A DNA stretch of 64,000 nt from Planctomycetota bacterium (GTDB taxonomy: Bacteria; Planctomycetota; UBA8742; UBA2392): positions 62,001 to 126,000 of the forward strand of contig JAMQHL010000049.1 of NCBI GenBank assembly GCA_025993795.1, in the 5' to 3' direction. Below the pieces are notes generated by a model. The model saw only the letters and a program-made list of their open reading frames with translations, had not been told where the DNA came from and did not search any database. Both the position numbers and the translations under genes were made by a program. Below, piece after piece: positions 50,008-61,222 of this stretch (within the stretch, counting starts at the first letter, position 1; every line of letters begins with the position of its first letter).

Positions 50008-50958
50008 ATGAGCAAGTTGATAACAGCGAAAATGCTGGCTGTGACGGTTGGGTTGCTGCTTTGGTCCAGTGTAAGCACGGCCGGCGCACCAGTACAACAG
50101 ACACGGATGACATCTGTGCAGAGTGCCGAGATCAAGGAAATCCGCATCAGCGCGATTCCTGACGCAGACGCCAAGGCCATCGAAGAGAAGTGCAATCTGC
50201 TTTCCGAGTATCTGAGCAAGAAGGTGGGCCTGCCGGTCAAGTTCATGGCCCAGCAGAACTACGCGGCATGCGTCACCGGGCTAGCCACCGACCAGCTTGA
50301 GGTTGTGTGGTTCGGCGGCGTAACGGCGGTGCAAGCCGACCAGAAGATGGAGGGCAAATGCGCGTACCTTGCGTGCCGCGAGTCAGACCTGAAGTACAAG
50401 TCTTACTTCATTGCAAACAGGAATGCCAAGATCGGGAAGATCAAGAGCTTGACCGAGCTGTCGGAAAATGAGTCCGCCGGCGAATGGAACTTTACGTTCG
50501 GCAGCAAGAGCAGCACCAGCGGCCACGTGATGCCGCGCCACTTCTTCCATGAGCAGACAGGCGAGAAGCCGGAAGACGTGTTCAAGAGGGTAGCGTACAG
50601 CGGCAACCACGACGCGACGCTCCGCAACGTGGCGGACGGCACTGCGGACATTGGCGCGATGAACTACAAGAACTGGGACAACGCCAAGGACGACCTGGCC
50701 AAGGCCAAGGAAAAGTGTGAGCTGATCTACACTACGCCCTTCTACGTTGACTACGTGTTCATGGCGCGGAACGGCATCGGCGAGGACTTGATCAAGAAGC
50801 TCAAGGACGCCCTGCTCGCTCTGGATGCCAAAGACGAGACGCAGAACAAAATTCTCGCGGCATGGGGCGCCAAAGACAGCAAGATGGTCGCGTGCGAAAA
50901 GAAAGACTGGGACGGCATCAAGAAGATCCTCGACGCGGGCGTGGACGTGGGTGGGTAA
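50008..50958 (+). CDS. PhnD-family substrate-binding protein, possibly for selenium oxyanions
   Basis: A 316-residue periplasmic binding protein (signal MSKLITAKMLAVTVGLLLWS). It has IRISAIPDADAKAIEEKCNL, LEVVWFGGVTAVQADQ, FTFGSKSSTSGHVMPRHFFH, NHDATLRNVADGTADIGAMN. The AIPD...VWFGG...TFGS.SSTSG pattern is closest to the PhnD branch annotated as putative selenate transporter binding proteins, rather than classic phosphonate PhnD (recalled, not searched). It is the first gene of a three-gene ABC operon and lies 7 kb from selA and tRNA-Sec. GAGAGGAGAG precedes the ATG. The substrate is inference. Confidence 0.85.
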   Translation: MSKLITAKMLAVTVGLLLWSSVSTAGAPVQQTRMTSVQSAEIKEIRISAIPDADAKAIEEKCNLLSEYLSKKVGLPVKFMAQQNYAACVTGLATDQLEVVWFGGVTAVQADQKMEGKCAYLACRESDLKYKSYFIANRNAKIGKIKSLTELSENESAGEWNFTFGSKSSTSGHVMPRHFFHEQTGEKPEDVFKRVAYSGNHDATLRNVADGTADIGAMNYKNWDNAKDDLAKAKEKCELIYTTPFYVDYVFMARNGIGEDLIKKLKDALLALDAKDETQNKILAAWGAKDSKMVACEKKDWDGIKKILDAGVDVGG

Positions 50959-51012: not shown

Positions 51013-51834
51013 ATGAACGCACAAACTACACCAACGGTTACCCAGCAGCGAGGCGACTTTGTTCTCTCGGGCGTTTCGCACAGCTTCGGCCGCGCGGAAG
51101 TTCTGACTGACCTGAACCTCACAATCGCACCCGGGGAACGTGTTGCGGTCATCGGGCCCTCCGGCGCCGGCAAGACCACGCTGTTCCGTTTGCTCTCCGC
51201 GTTCCTGATTCCTACGGCGGGGCATGTGAACTCGTTGGGCCAGGACACGCGCCGCCTGCGCGGCAGCAAGCTGCGCCGCCTGCGTCGCGAGATCGGCGTG
51301 ATGTACCAGAACGACAACCTGGTGCCGCACTTACGTGTTGTCCACAACGTGCTGATGGGCAGGCTGGGCCATTGGTGCGCCGGGCAGGCCTTGCTGAGCC
51401 TGTTCTGGCCCCAGCAGCTGCAGCGCGCACGTGCTGCGTTGCGTGAAGTGGAAATTGAAGACAAGTTGTGGGCATTGCCGGGCGAACTATCAGGCGGCCA
51501 GCAGCAGCGCGTGGCCATCGCGCGCCTGCTGGTGCAACGCCCTCGTGTGGTGCTGGCCGACGAGCCTGTAAGCCAGCTGGATATGCGCCTTGGCCATGAA
51601 GTAATCGCGCTGCTGAACAAGTACGCGCACGACGCCAAAGCCACGCTGATGGTGAACCTGCACTCGCTGGATTTGCTGCGAGACAACTTTGAGCGCGTAA
51701 TTGCGCTTCGCCAGGGCGCTGTGTTTTACGACGGCGGCGCCGGCGGGCTGACTCGCGAGAAGCTGAAAGAACTGTATGGCGCCGAGTATCGGGCATTGCA
51801 CCTGGACGACGTGGCGCTGGAGCCGACTGGATGA
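51013..51834 (+). CDS. ABC transporter ATPase (PhnC-like)
   Basis: A 273-residue ATPase with Walker A GPSGAGKTT at about residue 49, signature LSGGQQQRVAIARLL at about 159, Walker B RVVLADEP and the switch His in MVNLHSLDLLRDNFERVI. It powers the importer formed with the neighbouring binding protein and fused permease. It overlaps the permease by four bases (ATGA). No strong ribosome-binding site precedes its own ATG. Confidence 0.93.
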   Translation: MNAQTTPTVTQQRGDFVLSGVSHSFGRAEVLTDLNLTIAPGERVAVIGPSGAGKTTLFRLLSAFLIPTAGHVNSLGQDTRRLRGSKLRRLRREIGVMYQNDNLVPHLRVVHNVLMGRLGHWCAGQALLSLFWPQQLQRARAALREVEIEDKLWALPGELSGGQQQRVAIARLLVQRPRVVLADEPVSQLDMRLGHEVIALLNKYAHDAKATLMVNLHSLDLLRDNFERVIALRQGAVFYDGGAGGLTREKLKELYGAEYRALHLDDVALEPTG

Positions 51835-54026
51835 CATCGCCGTTACTGGTCAAGTACGCCAAGCGCCGGCCGATCTGGCACTTCATGGCGCTTGGCGCAC
51901 TCCTGATTGCGCTGTATCTGGCTTTCTTTGCCGTTGACCCGCACGACTTCAATCTGCTCGATTTCGACGGCGACGTTTGGGACTTCTCAAGCTTCACGGA
52001 CCCCGAACGCTTCGACGCAGCCACGCGCCGCCTGGGCGACTTCATTGCCTCGTTCTCGCGGCCTGACTTCAGCAGCGACTTCCTCAGCCGCGGCTGGGAA
52101 CTTACGTGGCAGACGCTTTCTGCCGCGCTGTTGGCGGTAGCGATCGGCATTGTGTTCGGGTACCTGCTGGCGCTGGGGGCTGCACGCAGCGTTTCAGTAG
52201 GCGAAGAACGCGGGCCACGCTGGCTGCGCTGGTTTCCGTTGCGAAGACCTGCTGCTCTGGTGTGTTCGGCCTGTCGGCTTGTGCTGGACGTGTTGCGTGC
52301 GGTGCCGGACTTTGCCTGGGCGGTGCTTCTTGTTCCGCTGCTCGGCATTGGCCCGATGACGGGCATGCTGGCCCTGGCAATCAGCACGACCGGCATTCTG
52401 GGTAAGATCTACAGCGAGATCTGGGACAGCGCAGACCCCAGGCTGTACGAAAACGTACGCGCCACCGGTGCCGGGCGTTTTCGCGTGTTCCTTTACGGCA
52501 TACGGCCACTGACGCAGCGCAGCATGCTCAGCTACACGCTGATGCGCAGCGAATGCGCAATCCGCAATGCTGCGGTGATCGGCGCAATTGGCGGCGGCGG
52601 CGTGGGAGCTGAGATCAAGCTGCGGCTTGACTACGGCGAGTATGACCGCGTAGCAACCATGGTGCTGTTCACGCTTGCCCTTACGCTGCTTGCCGACGTT
52701 GCCGCAAATTTCATCCGGCGCCAGCTTCGCACGGACCCCAATCACCCGCGTGCCGTACGCAACCAGTCGTTTCGTGCACAGGTGACTCGAAAGTGGATCG
52801 GCGTCGGGTTTGCACTCAGTGCCGTGGCATGGTCTGCGTGGTACCAGTTGCAGCCACACCCGTTGACGGTCCAGGAACCTCAGCTTCAGCGACTGATCGC
52901 CCTGTTTGAGCCCAAGGGCTGGGAACACATGGCGTTTTTCAAGGACCTGCTGAAGCCCGACCTTGACTGGACCAGCGTGGACACTGAGTCAAGCGACGTG
53001 CGCAGCCACTTCATTGCACGCAAGGAACTTGTGATTGAGAAGTCCGATGACCGCGCGGAATTTCTGGCGCGCGTGAGGGGTCTGCGCCTGGCGCTGGGCC
53101 CGCCCGACCTCGACGCGAGCAATCGCATACCGCGCAAAGTACTTGAGCAGGAAGGCGGTGCGCCTGTCGCCGACCTGTTCAGCGAGGTGATCGAAACGGG
53201 CAGCGACGCAGAGACGTTTCGCGCCCTGGCCGAAGGCCGGGCCGACATTGGCGCTATTGAGTGGGAGTCATGGGGCGCGGCACGAAATGACAAACAGGTG
53301 TTTGCCTGGCGCAAGCACAGCGCGCTGGCATTCACGACGCTGCGCTACGAGGGGACCAAGATTGAGCCCGGGCCACTGCAAGTTGCGGTAAAAAGCGCCA
53401 CGATACCGGTGGCGATGGCACTTGTCGGCACGCTGCTGGGTGTGCTGGGCGCAATGCTGCTGTGTTACCCGCACTCGGTTGCGTTTCAGCTTGAGTCGCA
53501 CCGGTTCACGGGCGAGACGCCTGCGCTGTGGCAGACCGCGTTGCGTTGGCTGCAGGCTGTGCTCTCGCGACTGGTTGCCGTGACCTCGCGTGCGATCCCC
53601 GAAGTGATGTGGGCCATGTTCTTCATGGCGTTCTTCGGCATGGGGGTCGTGGCGGGCGCTTTTGCCATTGCCGTACACACCATGGGGTTGCTGACGCGGG
53701 TGTTCGGCGAATCGGTGGACAACATTCCGTATCGGCGCTTTGAGCAAGGGTTTGCGGGCAGCCGGGTGGCATGCTTTGGTTACACAGCCGTGCCGACGAG
53801 CTGGCGGGACTGGATGACGTACAGCTTTTTCCAGTTCGAAAGCAACGTACGAATCGGCGTTGTGCTGGGCATTATTGGCAGCGCGGGCCTGGGCTTTGTC
53901 TTCAGTTTCAACTTTGAGCACTTCCGCTACGAGCGCGCGAGTACAGACCTGATCGTCATCATCTTGCTGACAGTCGTAATCGACCGCCTGTCGCGCGTCC
54001 TGAAGCTGACGCGGGTTGCGACCTGA
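51831..54026 (+). CDS. Fused double permease with an embedded binding-protein-like segment
   Basis: A 731-residue PhnE-type protein. The first permease unit is at about 85-305 (EAA-loop-like ENVRATGAGRFRVFLYGIRP), the second at about 510-731 (SVDNIPYRRFEQGFAGSRVA). After a membrane segment at about 322-342, residues 343-505 are hydrophilic. Residues 391-490 align with the second lobe of the upstream binding protein: HFIARKELVIEK, LGPPDLDASNRIPRKVLEQE, TFRALAEGRADIGAIEWESW against YFIANRNAKIGK, FGSKSSTSGHVMPRHFFHEQ, TLRNVADGTADIGAMNYKNW. So the one chain carries permease, binding-lobe-like segment, permease. It overlaps the ATPase gene start-stop. Confidence 0.85.
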   Translation: MTSPLLVKYAKRRPIWHFMALGALLIALYLAFFAVDPHDFNLLDFDGDVWDFSSFTDPERFDAATRRLGDFIASFSRPDFSSDFLSRGWELTWQTLSAALLAVAIGIVFGYLLALGAARSVSVGEERGPRWLRWFPLRRPAALVCSACRLVLDVLRAVPDFAWAVLLVPLLGIGPMTGMLALAISTTGILGKIYSEIWDSADPRLYENVRATGAGRFRVFLYGIRPLTQRSMLSYTLMRSECAIRNAAVIGAIGGGGVGAEIKLRLDYGEYDRVATMVLFTLALTLLADVAANFIRRQLRTDPNHPRAVRNQSFRAQVTRKWIGVGFALSAVAWSAWYQLQPHPLTVQEPQLQRLIALFEPKGWEHMAFFKDLLKPDLDWTSVDTESSDVRSHFIARKELVIEKSDDRAEFLARVRGLRLALGPPDLDASNRIPRKVLEQEGGAPVADLFSEVIETGSDAETFRALAEGRADIGAIEWESWGAARNDKQVFAWRKHSALAFTTLRYEGTKIEPGPLQVAVKSATIPVAMALVGTLLGVLGAMLLCYPHSVAFQLESHRFTGETPALWQTALRWLQAVLSRLVAVTSRAIPEVMWAMFFMAFFGMGVVAGAFAIAVHTMGLLTRVFGESVDNIPYRRFEQGFAGSRVACFGYTAVPTSWRDWMTYSFFQFESNVRIGVVLGIIGSAGLGFVFSFNFEHFRYERASTDLIVIILLTVVIDRLSRVLKLTRVAT

Positions 54027-54032
54027 CGCCGC

Positions 54033-56738
54033 TCAACCCGTGTTCAGCAGGCCGCGAGCGATGCCCTTGACGGTCGTGAACAGCGCGCGCTCAAGCCCCG
54101 TGTCTTCGCGGCCGCCGGCCCGCCATTGTTCCAGCAGATCAATCTGCGTCAGGCTCATGGGGTCGATGTATGGGTTGCGCAACCGGATTGCCCGCGCAAG
54201 CCACGGCTCATGCTCGAGCAGTTGCGTCTGGCCGCGCACTTCAAGCACGGCATCTCGCGTGGATTCAAACGCGGCCTTGAGCTCGCCGAACAGTTCGCCT
54301 GCCGCCGCGTCTGCCAGCGCGGCGTAGCGCGTCGCGATTCCTAGGTCAGCCTTTGCCATCACCATCTCAACGTCCGAAAGCAGCACGCGCAGCACCGGCC
54401 AGTCCCGCGCCGCTGCCTGCACACCGGCCAGCGTGTGCTTGTCGATCGCCGCGCGCAGGCCGTGGCCCATGCCGTACCATCCCGGCAGCGTCAGCCGCGA
54501 CTGCGTCCAGGCAAACACCCACGGTATCGCGCGCAGGTCGCCAATGCCTTTCTGTGCGCGGCGCGAGGGTGGCCGCGACCCGATGTGCATGCGTGAGATT
54601 ACGTCTACCGGCGTGGCAGACTGGAAATAGGCAAACAATCGCGGATCGTCATGCACCAGCGCGCGGTAGGCCCGCCGCGACTCGTCGGCCAGTGTCTGCA
54701 TGATCGCGCACCACTGTGGCCCCGGTGCCGGCAGGCGGGGCTCGCGCATTGAAAAACCAAGCACCGCGCCTGCCATCACCTCAAGCGTGCGTTGTGCAAT
54801 GCCACGCAACCCGTATCGCGAGTGAATGATCTCGCCCTGCTCGGTCACGCGCAGCCGGTGGCGCACGCTGCCCGGGGGTTGCGCGGGAATGGCTTCCGTT
54901 ACCTTGGTGCCGCCGCGACTGACGGTGCCGCCGCGCCCGTGAAACAGTACCAGTTGGACGCCGGCGCGGTCGGCGCATGCAACAAGCTGCTCTTGCGCAC
55001 GGTACAGCGCCCAGCGCGCCGCGCCGATGCTGGAGTCTTTGCCGCTGTCGGAATATCCGAGCATGACGTGCTGCACGTTGCCGCGTGCCGCGAGGTGCCG
55101 GCGATATTCGGCGTTGGCCAGCACCGCCTCAAGCGTGCTACTGGCCTGCTGAAGATCGGCTACGGTCTCAAACAGCGGCGCCACGTCCAGCGGCACGTGT
55201 GCGCCGTCTGTCAAACCGGCTTGGCGCGCCAGATACAGTACCGCCAGCATGTCGTCGGGCGCTTGCGCCATGCTGATGATGTAGGGGCCGATTGCATCCG
55301 CCCCGTGCATGCGGCGTGCGCGTGCGATGGCTTTGAATACGTCCATCGTGGACTGTGCCTGCGGTGACTCGGCCGGCAGGCCGGGCTGTGTCAGCGCAGC
55401 CGAAAGCGCAGCCGAAAGCGCAGCCGAAAGCGCAGCCGTGCGTTGTTCAGCGTGTCGCTCGCTGAACAGCTCATCGCCCAGCAGCTCTGCGCAGCAGTGG
55501 CGATGCACCTCGCTGTCCTGCCGCACATCCAGCGTGGCAAAAAAGAACTGAAACGTCTGAATGCGGCGGCCAAAGCGCAGCAGATGGTGCAACCCGGCAT
55601 GCGCACCCTTGTTGTCGGCAACGCTTTGAGTGATCAACGCGACGTCAGCGAGCAACTCGTTGGCTGAACCGTACGGGTGGCGGCCGTCACGTCTGGTCGC
55701 GCGCAACTTGGCAATCATGCAATGCAGCATCACGCGGTAGGGCATCTCGCGGTGCCGTGCGGGCGCGCGGTCGAGTTCACGCGAGAACTGCGTCGACAGC
55801 TCGCGCTTGCGTTGCAGCAACGGTGCGCTGAACGATGCCCGGGATTCGCTTTGGCTGAGGCGGTCGGCAAGCTCCTGCGCTTCTTGCATGTAGAGCTGCA
55901 AAATCGCGTCGCGTTGGCGCTGCAATGTGTGCTCAATGGTGGTGGCATTGACGTTGGGGTTGCCATCCATGTCGCCGCCCACCCAACTGCCAAAACGCAG
56001 CAGTGCCGGACAATCCAGGGCCTCGCCGAAAGTGGCCTGGAAGGCGGACTCCAGCGATTCCATGAAGCTGGGTACGATTCGATAAATCACCTGCGACAGA
56101 TAGAACAGCACATGGCCGGTTTCGTCATCCAGGGTCGGTCGTTCGCGAAAGTGTTCTTCGGTCTGCCAACTGGCGTGCACCTCTTCGGTGATGCGGTCCC
56201 AGGCGCGCCGCTCTTCGGCAGGGGTCAGCGCGCCGGGTTCAATGCGGTCAACCAGCGCTCGGGCAATGCGCTGCTGCTTGGTCAGCAGCGTGCGGCGAAC
56301 AGCCTCGGTCGGGTGTGCAGTGAACACCGGGCGCAACGCCAGATGCGAAAGTGCTTCGCGAACCTGCGCGCGTGTAAAGCCCTGGGCCTTGAGGGCGCCA
56401 AGCACGTCCAGAGGGCTGTTGGGCTGGATACCGCTGTGCTCATAGGCGCGGCGCCGCCGGATGCGATGAATCTGCTCGCCCATGTTGACCGCGCCGAAAT
56501 ATGCCGAAAACGCGCGCACCAGTTTCTCAAGAGTTGACAGGTCAAGACTGGAGGTGCCGGCCTGCAATGTTGCCGCGCCATCGCCCTGCCGCGCTCGCTG
56601 TGAGGCAAGACGCGTAGATTCGACCAAGTCAAAGAAGGCGTCGCCCTCCTGCTGTCGCAGCATGTCACCGACGATGGCGCCAAGGCGGCGAACATCGTCG
56701 CGCAGCGGGTCAGTCTTAGCATCGGGATCAGTTGGCAT
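54033..56738 (-). CDS. ppc: Phosphoenolpyruvate carboxylase
   Basis: A 901-residue PEPC. Catalytic motifs are VFTAHPTEAVRRTLL (His), GYSDSGKDSSIGAARWALY, FHGRGGTVSRGG and IPWVFAWTQSRLTLPGWYGM; it ends RNPYIDPMSLTQIDLLEQWR and a near C-terminal KGIARGLLNTG. It makes oxaloacetate from PEP and bicarbonate for anaplerosis. A 12-base tandem repeat (55393-55438) gives SAALSAALSAAL in a loop region. It ends six bases from the opposite permease gene. Confidence 0.97.
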   Translation of the reverse strand: MPTDPDAKTDPLRDDVRRLGAIVGDMLRQQEGDAFFDLVESTRLASQRARQGDGAATLQAGTSSLDLSTLEKLVRAFSAYFGAVNMGEQIHRIRRRRAYEHSGIQPNSPLDVLGALKAQGFTRAQVREALSHLALRPVFTAHPTEAVRRTLLTKQQRIARALVDRIEPGALTPAEERRAWDRITEEVHASWQTEEHFRERPTLDDETGHVLFYLSQVIYRIVPSFMESLESAFQATFGEALDCPALLRFGSWVGGDMDGNPNVNATTIEHTLQRQRDAILQLYMQEAQELADRLSQSESRASFSAPLLQRKRELSTQFSRELDRAPARHREMPYRVMLHCMIAKLRATRRDGRHPYGSANELLADVALITQSVADNKGAHAGLHHLLRFGRRIQTFQFFFATLDVRQDSEVHRHCCAELLGDELFSERHAEQRTAALSAALSAALSAALTQPGLPAESPQAQSTMDVFKAIARARRMHGADAIGPYIISMAQAPDDMLAVLYLARQAGLTDGAHVPLDVAPLFETVADLQQASSTLEAVLANAEYRRHLAARGNVQHVMLGYSDSGKDSSIGAARWALYRAQEQLVACADRAGVQLVLFHGRGGTVSRGGTKVTEAIPAQPPGSVRHRLRVTEQGEIIHSRYGLRGIAQRTLEVMAGAVLGFSMREPRLPAPGPQWCAIMQTLADESRRAYRALVHDDPRLFAYFQSATPVDVISRMHIGSRPPSRRAQKGIGDLRAIPWVFAWTQSRLTLPGWYGMGHGLRAAIDKHTLAGVQAAARDWPVLRVLLSDVEMVMAKADLGIATRYAALADAAAGELFGELKAAFESTRDAVLEVRGQTQLLEHEPWLARAIRLRNPYIDPMSLTQIDLLEQWRAGGREDTGLERALFTTVKGIARGLLNTG
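55393..55438 (-). repeat. 12-base tandem repeat inside ppc
   Basis: AGCGCAGCCGAA occurs as three full copies and one partial copy on the plus strand, giving repeated Ser-Ala-Ala-Leu in PEPC. The unit keeps frame. Confidence 0.9.
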
Positions 56739-56806: not shown

Positions 56807-56899
56807 TGGCGGGAGCACATGGGAATCGAACCCACCTGACACTTGCGCGTCACTACGGTTTTGAAGACCGAGAGGCCCACCAGGCGCCTTTCTGCTCCC
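56807..56899 (-). tRNA. selC: tRNA-Sec(TCA), selenocysteine
   Basis: A 93-base tRNA with encoded CCA. The anticodon arm is CGGTCTTCAAAACCG (anticodon TCA), with a long variable arm (GTGACGCGCAAGTGTCA-type pairing), an extended acceptor (GGGAGCAG against GTGCTCCC, the eighth pair being G-G) and T-arm GTGGGTTCGATTCCCAT. Opposable UCA, extra-long acceptor and long extra arm identify tRNA-Sec. It lies downstream of the selA-glycosyltransferase pair and decodes UGA with SelB. Confidence 0.96.
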
Positions 56900-56956: not shown

Positions 56957-57622
56957 TTACCTCCCACGCTGCCGCCACAACTGCCGCAGAAACGCAAAGC
57001 CATACCTGAGCAAACGGTTCTTGCTGCGACCCTTGCCCCTTGGGTAGTAATGGATGCCGACTTCTTTCACTTTCGCATTCTTCTTCCCGGCCCATGCAAG
57101 CAATGCCGGCTGTACCTCAAAGTAGCGCGCGGTGATCTGCGCGTCGGCGAACACCTCCCTGCGATACAGCCGAAACCCGCTGCTCACGTCACGCACGGGC
57201 AAGAGGGCAATCGTGGCAAACATGCCGGCAAGCATGCGCGACAGAAAGCGCCGAAACGCGCTGCCATCGCTGCCGCCACCGGCGGCATAGCGCGAGCCGA
57301 CAACCAGGTCGGCGCCCTGCCTTGTGTCCCACAATTTGCGCGCGTCTTCGGCGCGGTGACTGCCGTCAGCGTCCATTACCAGCACCCATTCGCTGCCGGC
57401 TTGACGCATGCCCTGCATCAAGCTGTCAGCATATCCGCCGGTGTTGACGATGACGGTAGCGCCTTCGGCGTGCGCCTGTTGCCTCGTGTCGTCTTTGCTG
57501 TCGCCATCGACCACAAGAAATGCGGGCGCAGGCAGCACATCGCGCAGGGCGCGAATCAGCGGGCCGATGTTGCCGGCTTCATTGATCGTGGGCAGGACGA
57601 CGGTCAACTCAGGCACGGTCAA
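56957..57622 (-). CDS. Family 2 glycosyltransferase
   Basis: A 221-residue GT-A enzyme of the dolichol-phosphate-mannose-synthase-like type: LTVVLPTINEAGNIGPLIRA, VVDGDSKDDT, the DxD-type VLVMDADGSHRAED, VVGSRYAAGGG and RDVSSGFRLYRREVF. It lacks C-terminal membrane helices, so it is the soluble type. The TTG start overlaps the selA stop (TTGA), so it is coupled to selA. A direct role with selenium is not known; the pairing may be incidental. It may modify a lipid or protein glycan. Confidence 0.88.
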   Translation of the reverse strand: MTVPELTVVLPTINEAGNIGPLIRALRDVLPAPAFLVVDGDSKDDTRQQAHAEGATVIVNTGGYADSLMQGMRQAGSEWVLVMDADGSHRAEDARKLWDTRQGADLVVGSRYAAGGGSDGSAFRRFLSRMLAGMFATIALLPVRDVSSGFRLYRREVFADAQITARYFEVQPALLAWAGKKNAKVKEVGIHYYPRGKGRSKNRLLRYGFAFLRQLWRQRGR

Positions 57623-59025
57623 GCCTGCCTGGCGGATGCAATAGCTGCAACCAGCTCTGCATCCTGGCCGGGCAGCAGTGTTCGGGGGTCAAAGACCAGG
57701 GCGTCGTTCTCGATACGGCAGAACACGCTGGGTGTGCCCATGCGCAGACGTTTTGCAGCTGCGTCGGGCGAGCCGCCAAGCTTGTCGATCACGAGCACGG
57801 TCGTCGGCAACTCTTCGCCGGGGGTGGAGCCGCCGCCGATCTGGCTTGTGCTTTCCTGCAACGTCGCAGTTACGCCATGCTTGGCAAGCCGCCTGGCAAT
57901 GCTTCGCGCGAGCTTGGCCACCTGTGCAGCCGGGCGCGCGATCGCCGCCAGTGTGGGCACAGACTGCGTTGCAGTTGACGTGTCAAGATACAGCTTCAGA
58001 GTGTGCTCAAGCAGGCTCAGCGTAACTTTGTCGCAGCGCATCATCCGGAACAGCGCGTTTTTCTTGATCTTGTCGATCAGCCCCTTGCGCCCCACGATCA
58101 TGCCTGCCTGCGGGCCGCCGAACAGCTTGTCGCCGCTGAAGCAGACAAGATCGGCGCCGGTTGCCACCAGTTCAGGTACCGTCGGCTCGCGCGTGATGCC
58201 CCACGGCTTCAGGTCAACAATGCTGCCTGCGCCCAGGTCATACACAACCGGAATGTTGCGGCGCCGCCCCACTTCGACAAGCTCCTCCAGCGATGCCTCT
58301 TCGGTAAACCCGACAATCGCGTAGTTGCTGGTGTGTACTTTCAGCAGCATTGCCGTGCTGTCGCTGATCGCGTCTTCATAGTCTTTGGGCTTGGTCTTGT
58401 TGGTGCAACCGACCTCAACCAGGTGGCAGCCGGCTTTGCGCATCACGTCAGGCATGCGATAGCTGCCGCCGATTTCGACCATATGGGCACGCGAGCAGAC
58501 AACGTCCGCGCCATCGGCCAGGGCGTTCAGGATGATCATGGTTGCCGCGGCGTTGTTGTTCACGACGGTGGCGGCTTCGGCCCCGGTGATTTTTTCAATC
58601 AGCGCGTTCACAAGCTTGTCGCGGTCGCTGCGCTTGCCGCTGGCGCGATCAAGCTCGAGACACGAGTACCCGGCGGCTTCGCGCATCGCGGCTTCGACGG
58701 CAGCGGGCGCCAGCGGCGCGCGCCCGAGCGAAGTGTGCAGGATGACGCCCGTGGCGTTGATGACCCGGCACTGGATCGGCCCCATTAACCGCGCAAGCCG
58801 TTGGCCCACGCGCACGGCCAGCACTTCGGGCGTAAGCTCGGACAGGAACACATGTTTGTCTTCACGAATTCCGTGGCGCAACTCATCGAGCGCAAGGCGG
58901 GTTTCACCCGTTGCGAGGTCACGGCCGTGGGCTTCAAGAAGGCCCGCAAAGGCAGCATGGCCGAGCAGGGCGTCCAGCTTGGGCAGGTCTCGCGGCGTGG
59001 CGATGTTGGATGCGGTCTTGGTCAC
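57619..59025 (-). CDS. selA: L-seryl-tRNA(Sec) selenium transferase
   Basis: A 468-residue PLP enzyme. The PLP lysine is Lys300 in CFSGDKLFGGPQAGMIVG. Other marks are CRVINATGVILHTSLGRAPL, EAAGYSCLELDRASGKRSDR and NNNAAATMIILNALA. It converts Ser-tRNA(Sec) to Sec-tRNA(Sec) using selenophosphate. The start is GTG 59025 (MTKTASNIATPRD); the start signal is weak. It lies downstream of two selenoprotein genes and upstream of a glycosyltransferase and tRNA-Sec. selB and selD are outside the window. Confidence 0.97.
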   Translation of the reverse strand: MTKTASNIATPRDLPKLDALLGHAAFAGLLEAHGRDLATGETRLALDELRHGIREDKHVFLSELTPEVLAVRVGQRLARLMGPIQCRVINATGVILHTSLGRAPLAPAAVEAAMREAAGYSCLELDRASGKRSDRDKLVNALIEKITGAEAATVVNNNAAATMIILNALADGADVVCSRAHMVEIGGSYRMPDVMRKAGCHLVEVGCTNKTKPKDYEDAISDSTAMLLKVHTSNYAIVGFTEEASLEELVEVGRRRNIPVVYDLGAGSIVDLKPWGITREPTVPELVATGADLVCFSGDKLFGGPQAGMIVGRKGLIDKIKKNALFRMMRCDKVTLSLLEHTLKLYLDTSTATQSVPTLAAIARPAAQVAKLARSIARRLAKHGVTATLQESTSQIGGGSTPGEELPTTVLVIDKLGGSPDAAAKRLRMGTPSVFCRIENDALVFDPRTLLPGQDAELVAAIASARQA

Positions 59026-59195: not shown

Positions 59196-60119
59196 CTAGC
59201 TGGCGCTCTTGATGGCCTCGTCGATTTCCTTCTCGAGGTCAGTCTTCTTGAACTCTTTGGCCAGGTTCTTGAGGCCCGCGGTGTCCTTCTTCTCGGCAAG
59301 CGTCTTCATCTCTTCGCGCGCTTCGTCGAGAATCTTGTGGTACAGCCGAATGGTCTCTTCCTGCGCCGCAAGGCCGACGATGCCTGCCTTGAAGTTCTTC
59401 AGGATGTTGCTCAACGCGCCTTTCCGGTCGGCCTTTTCGTGGGCCGCAGTGGCCTTGTCGAGAGTGCTCTGCAGCTTGGCGTTGTCCTTTTCCGAGGCTT
59501 CCTTGACCTTGTCGACCATGGACTCGAGCGACTTGGCGGACGGCGCCGAGTAAAGGCGATTGTGCTCGTTCCCGTAGCTGTCGGTGACCAGGATGGTGCT
59601 CTGGCCGACCTTGATTCCATAGTCGCGGGCCGGGTTGTCGCTCAGCAACTTGCTGGTCGGCACAGTGCTTTCCGTAGCCCAGGGCGACTTCTCGCGGTCA
59701 GCGTTGTATGGAAGCTTCAGGAAAAGCGCTGAGGACTTGCTGAGGTCAGCGATTTCCTTGCCCGAGAAGCTGGCGTCCGACTCATTTTCAGAGGGGAACC
59801 AGATCACCAGGGGACGACCCTCGCGCGCTGCGCTTTCAAGCGCATCGGTGGATGGCCGCTGCCATGACGGAAGTTCTTCGGGTTTGACTGTGGGGCCGGC
59901 TGGACGGGCTGCGCCACCGCCACCACCCTGTCGATCAACACGACCGACGGTCTTTCCGCTACCAGATGCGCCCGTACCCGGGCCGCTGGAAGCTCCACCT
60001 GAGGAGGCACCGCCCCCTCCGCCACCGCCACATCACTGTGCTGCAAGCGGCTGCGCGATGATGCCGGTGAGCACGAATGCCCCAGCCGCCGCGAGCGCCA
60101 TAATATTGAAACGCTTCAT
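59196..60119 (-). CDS. Putative exported selenoprotein, Sec-Cys form (TGA at codon 29)
   Basis: Reading from ATG 60119 (GGAGGAG six bases upstream) through TGA 60033-60035 gives 307 residues: signal MKRFNIMALAAAGAFVLTGI, conserved IAQPLAAQ, then Sec29-Cys30 (TGA TGT), then a Gly/Ser-rich linker (31-75) and a domain from about 75. That domain has RPLVIWFP, ALFLKLPYNADREKSPW, VPTSKLLS and VTDSYGNE, resembling a thioredoxin fold without CxxC, followed by a charged helical C-terminus. It is paralogous to the next gene upstream. Nearby selA and tRNA-Sec support Sec. A conventional reading would start at 59807 and lack signal and linker. Confidence 0.85.
60003..60020 (-). promoter_or_regulatory. 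SECIS-like hairpin of the Sec-Cys gene
   Basis: GGAGG/CCTCC stem with loop GGGCGGTG begins 12 bases after TGA; the loop starts 17 bases after it, within the usual 16-37-base window for bacterial SECIS loops. The loop begins with G as expected. The surrounding Gly codons make the stem GC-rich, so specificity is uncertain. Confidence 0.5.
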
Positions 60120-60355: not shown

Positions 60356-61222
60356 CTAGCCCTTGGTGGTCTGGGTGCTGGGATTCTTGAGGGCTTCGTT
60401 GGCTTCTTTCTCGAGGTCGGTGCCTTTGTAATCCTTGGCAATGCCCTTGAGGCCGTCGACGTCACCCTTTTCGTGCATTTCCTTGATGCGATCGCGGCCG
60501 GCGTCCATGATTTCGTGGTAGAGCTTGATGGACTCAACCTGCGAAGGAAGGCCCACTACGCCCTCCTTGAAGTTCTTGAGCAGCGTCTTCACAGCGTTCT
60601 TGTCGTCCTGCTTGCTGTGCTGGTCGCGTGCCTTTTCGAGATTCTTGAACAGCTTCTTGTCCGCCTTGTCCGCCTCGTCCTTGACTTTGGCGATCAAGGC
60701 CTTGAGCGCATCGGTCTTTACCTTGGCGCCCGGACGGAAGTAGCTGTTGCCGTAGCTGTCGCACACGAACATGTCGGCTTTGCCAACGGAAACACCGTAG
60801 GCCAGTGACGGATTCGGACTCAGCAGCTTGCTGGTCGGAATCACTGAGTCTTCCGTCCAAGGCGACTTCTCGCGATCGGCGGAGTACGGAATCTTGATGA
60901 AGAGCGCGTCTTCCTTGCTCAATGCCGCCCAATCATCACCATACAGGTCAAAGTCGCTGTCCGCCTCGTCCGGGAAGTACAGGACGATCGGACGCCGCTC
61001 CGCTGCCGCTGTTTCCAGCGTGGCGGCATCGGCCTTGTTCCAGGACGGAACCTTGTTGGGATCTTTCGTGCGGGCTGCACCAGCCCCGGAGTTGGTCGGA
61101 CGATCAACGCGTCCGGCCTTACTCCCACCACCTCATCACTGGCCCGCAAGCGGCTGGGCAATCACGCCGGCAAGGCTGCCGACTACGATGCTCAGGGCCG
61201 CGATCGTGAGGAACTTTCTCAT
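60356..61222 (-). CDS. Putative exported selenoprotein, Sec-Sec form (two TGA at codons 29-30)
   Basis: Reading from ATG 61222 (GGAG, six-base spacing) through TGA TGA at 61133-61138 gives 288 residues: signal MRKFLTIAALSIVVGSLAGV, IAQPLAGQ, Sec29-Sec30, Gly/Ser linker, then a domain with RRPIVLYFP, ALFIKIPYSADREKSPW, IPTSKLLS and VCDSYGNS, then helices ending in KG. The same codon position holds TGA TGT in the paralogue at 59196. The two genes share IAQPLA-Q-U-x-GGG and the domain. Without recoding, only 60356-60922 would be seen, with no signal peptide. Function unknown; a redox-active vicinal pair on a flexible tether is plausible. Confidence 0.85.
61094..61118 (-). promoter_or_regulatory. 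SECIS-like hairpin of the Sec-Sec gene
   Basis: CGGACG/CGTCCG six-base stem, extended by two G-C pairs across a C-A mismatch, loop CGTTGAT. The loop starts 26 bases after the first TGA and 23 after the second. G is the second loop base, as the bacterial SECIS rule expects. Stronger than the hairpin of the other gene. Confidence 0.6.

Follow-up and report, generated by a model that had tools for sequence, protein, structure and literature searches.

The fused PhnE permease of a planctomycete PhnDCE operon carries, between its two membrane halves, a domain homologous to the second lobe of PhnD, the substrate-binding protein (SBP) of the same operon. This domain has lost the ligand residues of PhnD, is under purifying selection and is found in a single clade of permeases. 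We put the chance that it acts as a fixed pseudo-SBP lobe in docking or gating at roughly one half; by the mechanism that we infer, it would present a permanently 'loaded-looking' surface and would not compete for cargo.

In the window, by which we mean the whole stretch of 64,000 nucleotides analyzed here, phnD, phnC and the fused phnE are all located on the + strand and form one PhnDCE operon, in which the last 4 bases of phnC are also the first 4 of phnE. The operon encodes a type I ABC importer. Its parts, together with two nearby genes, are:

50008..50958, + strand: PhnD-like periplasmic substrate-binding protein, 316 aa (PF12974, E=1.1e-50)
51013..51834, + strand: PhnC-like ATPase, 273 aa (PF00005, E=2.1e-35; TIGR02315, E=2e-66)
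51831..54026, + strand: fused PhnE-PhnE permease with inserted lobe, 731 aa (TIGR01097, alignments, model)
51978..52730, + strand: first permease half, residues 50-300 (best PF00528/TIGR01097 stretches 149-300 and 57-299)
52857..52982, + strand: ancestral periplasmic loop, residues 343-384, common to lobe-less sister permeases (alignment of long and short forms)
52983..53384, + strand: inserted PhnD lobe-2 pseudo-domain, residues ~385-518 (Pfam, BLASTP, alignment, profile, model, shuffles)
53109..53117, + strand: degenerate STS anion-loop position, residues 427-429, L-D-A in the window's PhnE (residue comparison of lobe and PhnD)
53205..53207, + strand: Asp459, at the position of the ligand His of the STS-H motif (9/9 lobes)
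53385..54017, + strand: second permease half, residues 519-729 (alignments of long and short forms)
56807..56899, - strand: tRNA-Sec, 2.8 kb from phnE (ARAGORN; Rfam RF01852, 69.2 bits)
57619..59025, - strand: selA, L-seryl-tRNA(Sec) selenium transferase (TIGR00474, 530.5 bits, cut-off 267.9)

The permease matches TIGR01097 in two stretches, with 293 bits against a curated cut-off of 216.7. The window's PhnD is a complete two-lobe SBP with an intact STS-H anion motif (ligand positions STS at 169-171, His201 and Tyr133) and a signal peptide without a lipobox. The PhnD proteins of the lobe-bearing clade (50008-50958 in the window; L032-L041) also have conserved cysteines, e.g. in EEKCN, AACVTG, LACR and KCELIY, which are largely missing from the PhnD of lobe-less operons and might form disulfides.

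The initial annotation had aligned permease residues 391-490 (window positions 53001-53300, in frame) with the second lobe of the adjacent PhnD, and this similarity is confirmed by BLASTP, where PhnE 391-506 matches PhnD 131-246 with 47.4 bits (E=4e-10, 26% identity), and by PF12974 (Phosphonate-bd), whose profile positions 83-174 of 242 match PhnE 388-488 above the gathering score (30.6 bits against 27, E=2.8e-7). NCBIfam SBP models match the same stretch with E-values of 2.4e-6 to 2.4e-4. In Smith-Waterman alignments, the lobe segment scores 110 against PhnD, compared to a maximum of 52 for shuffled sequences (n=3000; Gumbel p ~1.5e-10). When the nine known permease lobes were combined into a profile with no PhnD inside, the top PDB sequences were chains of PhnD and PtxB (7s6g, E=3.1e-4).

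Structure prediction points in the same direction. A model of the whole PhnE, built at moderate confidence (67.6) from 18 permease sequences with PhnD excluded, predicts an α/β domain at residues 381-513, between helices 314-339 and 515-545, and has PhnD1 and PhnD among its top Foldseek matches. A lobe-only AlphaFold model, for which the nine permease lobes were the sole input, reached a mean pLDDT of 84, with core blocks mostly at 85-96. The periplasmic-binding fold expected from the initial annotation is indeed predicted: the model matches lobe 2 of PhnD1 (5lq5) with Z 17.3 and an rmsd of 2.0 Å over 115 residues, followed by AioX, ArrX, PtxB and HtxB at Z ~14-15. Given that lobe 2 of Ps_PtxB comprises residues 96-196 (PMC5700983), the fold match and the PhnD and PtxB chains at the top of the PDB search indicate that the insert corresponds to one whole PhnD lobe 2; of the two hinged lobes that make up an SBP, it contains only this one. 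A chance similarity is ruled out by the shuffles, the profile match and the fold match, and a frameshift or misassembly joining two genes by the same open frame in nine separate assemblies.

Of the region that the initial annotation had marked for structure prediction, residues 343-505, the first part lies outside the lobe. The lobe itself is real, but extends over residues ~385-518 and is followed by a membrane helix, whereas residues 343-384 belong to the loop of the sister permeases. In these, the same loop start is followed by ~45 residues and then by the next membrane helix, and the alignment of long and short forms shows that the lobe takes the place of those ~45 residues. Basic residues precede the first helix of each permease half (KYAKRRP and RRQLRTDPNHPR), so that, by the positive-inside rule, these ends should be cytoplasmic and the lobe-bearing loop periplasmic. 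Together with the topology of the model, this signal would place the lobe in the periplasm, close to the docking face.

A search for the same arrangement of permease half, half SBP and permease half in other genomes found it in nine, all from one planctomycete family, seven other genomes of which encode a fused permease whose loop is short. One further genome, without such an operon, completes the 17 genomes of the order. Among 392 genomes of the phylum, a one-piece match to the full-length model was obtained in those nine alone, each with a reading frame that is open throughout. Close relatives in Thauera/Pseudothauera and in Desulfonatronum/Desulfovibrionales have a fused permease without a lobe. 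A limited first look at samples of 398 genomes from the phylum of Pseudothauera and 297 from that of Desulfonatronum revealed no lobe, and plasmids yielded no lobe with at least 80% query cover; beyond the order, the genomes were thus sampled incompletely, and the organisms are known from MAGs only. The architecture also appears to be undescribed, as the initial annotation had supposed: our searches of the open-licence literature found no earlier description of an SBP lobe within a permease.

The lobe-bearing permeases form a single clade spanning five genera. In a midpoint-rooted tree of the membrane halves, the long forms lie on one side of a branch with 100/100 support, so that a single change is needed. 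Since PhnE generally and all distant relatives are devoid of the lobe, we regard a single gain as far likelier than repeated loss. One genome of the window's own genus has a lobe-less operon (L046, G001:C8:19695-21575), which groups with the lobe-less clade; here, horizontal transfer has probably swapped the operon beside tRNA-Sec.

The lobe appears to derive from the operon's own PhnD. A profile of the lobes ranks the nine PhnD proteins of the lobe-bearing genomes at the top (56.9-65.7 bits), followed by those of the seven lobe-less family genomes (40.7-55.7 bits), while all other SBPs score below 40. In a tree of lobe-2 sequences, the lobes likewise group with the PhnD of the long-form operons (90/92), inside the clade of operon PhnD (99/98). 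The two lines of evidence agree, albeit across a very long lobe stem (2.31), which makes the exact branching point unsure; an origin from an unrelated SBP is disfavored by both, subject to the same uncertainty.

In the PhnD/PtxB family, the ligands contributed by lobe 2 are the STS triplet, one His and Tyr residues (PMC5700983). All of these are intact in 19/19 free operon PhnD proteins. In the permease lobes, by contrast, the STS-H anion motif is absent in 9/9: the Tyr ligand (Y133 in PhnD) is replaced by His393, the central Thr of the triplet by Asp or Glu at position 428, and the ligand His by Asp459, each in all nine lobes. What the lobe and PhnD share is mainly structural (F394, G423, P434, R435, G443, F450, A467, G469, G474 and T503), and the lobe-specific invariants include H393, P424, D459 and R485. 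This outcome favors a pseudo-lobe, and with its ligand residues lost while selection persists, the lobe should be a maintained domain that does not bind an oxyanion in the way its parent does.

One could still imagine a working receptor or half-site, which accepts a different ligand (a cation bound by the acidic pair, for example) or closes with lobe 1 of PhnD over a ligand common to both. The parent domain is after all a binding lobe, and the pairing of Asp/Glu428 with Asp459 in all nine lobes is what one would expect of a new site rather than of random loss. However, this would have to be achieved by a single lobe without a hinge and without the second wall of the cleft, whose known oxyanion contacts are lost or acidic. 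A specific new ligand at such a lobe would, to our knowledge, be unprecedented in the PhnD/PtxB family, and we find this explanation quite unlikely.

Selection on the lobe was assessed in five close pairs only, as between-genus dN/dS values are near saturation and were left out. The lobe yields values of 0.09, 0.14, 0.09, 0.06 and 0.06, the membrane halves 0.03-0.08; the lobe is thus under purifying selection. Between genera, it retains 36-62% identity versus 72-85% for the membrane halves, and this much faster divergence implies a weakly conserved surface, a point against the docking or gating role. The initial annotation had considered a relic of a full PhnD-PhnE fusion, to which one may add a neutral insertion in decay. 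Fast divergence between genera would suit either, but dN/dS values of 0.06-0.14, an open frame in all nine genomes and a well-predicted fold do not. Moreover, the alignment of long and short forms shows no remnant of lobe 1 in the permease loop, the sister permeases have a short loop, and the long forms constitute one clade in five genera that requires a single change in the tree. This idea is therefore largely refuted, and we consider it very improbable. Purifying selection, together with the loss of an anion site that PhnD has kept, suggests instead a maintained pseudo-lobe that is neither a relic nor a second receptor.

A domain may also be maintained for folding only, as a spacer or stabilizer that stands in for a loop and has no specific partner. 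The replacement of a loop at the same position, the greater variability of the lobe relative to the membrane halves and the mainly structural character of its agreement with PhnD are all in keeping with such a role, which nevertheless leaves unexplained why H393, P424, D459 and R485 are invariant and why the copy was taken from the operon's very own PhnD. We judge it unlikely.

Among known systems, lobe 2 of PhnD and PtxB (PMC5700983; 5lq5, 7s6g, 5o2k) has the same fold and belongs to the same sequence family as the insert, which differs in being a single lobe, in the loss of STS-H with inversion of charge and in its location within a permease chain. MalF-P2 is a folded periplasmic loop domain of the maltose-importer permease, which works with the binding protein (PMC8134467 and references therein). 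As a folded periplasmic domain in the permease loop of a type I importer, it is the nearest permease-loop precedent. The PhnE lobe, however, would derive from a binding protein, while MalF-P2 does not, and the P2 fold is not known to be related to that of an SBP lobe. GlnPQ and OpuA have complete SBDs that bind ligand and are attached to the transmembrane domain (PMC8025302, PMC11065425), which makes these importers the nearest precedent for an SBP-derived domain covalently joined to a permease. PhnE differs from them in that it has half an SBP between its permease halves, in which the PhnD-type site is lost, and in that the operon retains a complete gene for a free PhnD. Finally, the lobe-less fused PhnE proteins of the family and of Desulfonatronum/Thauera are part of the same PhnD-PhnC-PhnE system and have homologous halves, with 51-57% identity overall, but a short loop of ~45 residues instead of the lobe. 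Neither MalF-P2 nor GlnPQ/OpuA features half an SBP from the operon's own receptor.

To account for these observations, we propose that, in the stem lineage of one planctomycete clade, lobe 2 of the operon's PhnD was copied into the periplasmic loop, where it replaced ~45 residues. The copy would have retained its fold, while its anion site was lost and turned acidic, leaving a pseudo-binding-protein lobe fixed on the periplasmic side, near the place where PhnD docks. There, it may hold or orient the soluble PhnD, and its surface, permanently 'loaded-looking' because carboxylates occupy the oxyanion position, might prime docking or gating. The reversal of charge has probably turned the nutrient-catching half of a receptor into a docking or control part. 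Of the two options in the initial annotation, the docked or regulatory pseudo-substrate lobe is in line with a lobe 2 in the loop between the halves and with the loss of its ligand residues, whereas the relic has to be abandoned; a pseudo-substrate in the strict sense, with the lobe imitating the loaded state, is no more than a possibility.

The docking role could also be a negative one. As a plug or auto-inhibitory lid, the lobe would fill the docking site at rest and be displaced by loaded PhnD, a form of competitive gating for which a homolog of the docking partner, tethered beside the docking site and with an acidic site that could mimic the loaded state, seems well placed. Yet lobe 1, which normally docks as well, is absent, and we deem a plug improbable.

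The PhnD proteins themselves offer a hint at a tethering or docking role. A lipobox is present in PhnD from 5/5 lobe-less planctomycete operons with a readable N-terminus versus 0/8 lobe-bearing ones; the lipoproteins in question (L039, L043, L044, L045, L046) combine it with a Gly-rich linker. This contrast, which amounts to one phylogenetic event, is faintly suggestive of a lobe that replaced the membrane tether of PhnD. Thauera and Desulfonatronum have a soluble PhnD and no permease lobe, and such an exchange is therefore not obligatory.

As for the cargo, the best NCBIfam model for the free PhnD is TIGR04553, a putative selenate SBP, with 239.6 bits just under the cut-off of 250; the protein also stays below the cut-off of the PhnD equivalog TIGR03431 (132.9 against 261.1 bits). 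No paper on TIGR04553 was found in the open-licence literature. In the window, the 3' end of phnE has tRNA-Sec and selA in its vicinity. This linkage to selenocysteine genes recurs: in 11/16 family genomes (G000, G001, G002, G003, G004, G008, G011, G012, G013, G014 and G015), tRNA-Sec is found at most 3.4 kb from phnE on the same contig, accompanied by selA in 10 of the 11, with the contig ending there in G008; in the other five, phnE and tRNA-Sec are on different contigs. The cargo is hence probably a selenium oxyanion, and the adjacency to tRNA-Sec and selA, along with the TIGR04553 match, makes PhnDCE a candidate selenium oxyanion importer in its lobe-bearing and lobe-less versions alike. 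That the lobe tracks selenium use is ruled out, as operons of both kinds are located near tRNA-Sec. The selD gene of the window's genome (L064, G000:C70:24866-25786) has a reading frame that continues through one in-frame TGA, and its product is thus likely a selenoprotein itself. Elsewhere in this part of the window, we noted a short in-frame repeat, ALSAALSAALSAAL, within a phosphoenolpyruvate carboxylase gene (55395-55445) and two neighboring paralogous ORFs of 188 and 203 aa (59196-59807 and 60356-60922, both on the - strand), for which no convincing Pfam match was found.

In its most specific form, our proposal is that docking or gating is licensed by a captured, charge-reversed lobe, built into the permease as an 'already loaded' pseudo-lobe, maybe in a dedicated selenium importer; as a whole, we hold it only tentatively and with considerable doubt. 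By what means type I importers distinguish a loaded binding protein from an empty one is a long-standing question, and a built-in pseudo-lobe would, if true, be a novel means by which a translocator reads the binding protein. A site-altered copy of lobe 2 near the docking face also opens the role of this lobe in docking to domain exchange, for which the closely related lobe-less permeases are ready controls, while the linkage to tRNA-Sec and selA singles the operon out as a concrete candidate for uptake dedicated to selenium.
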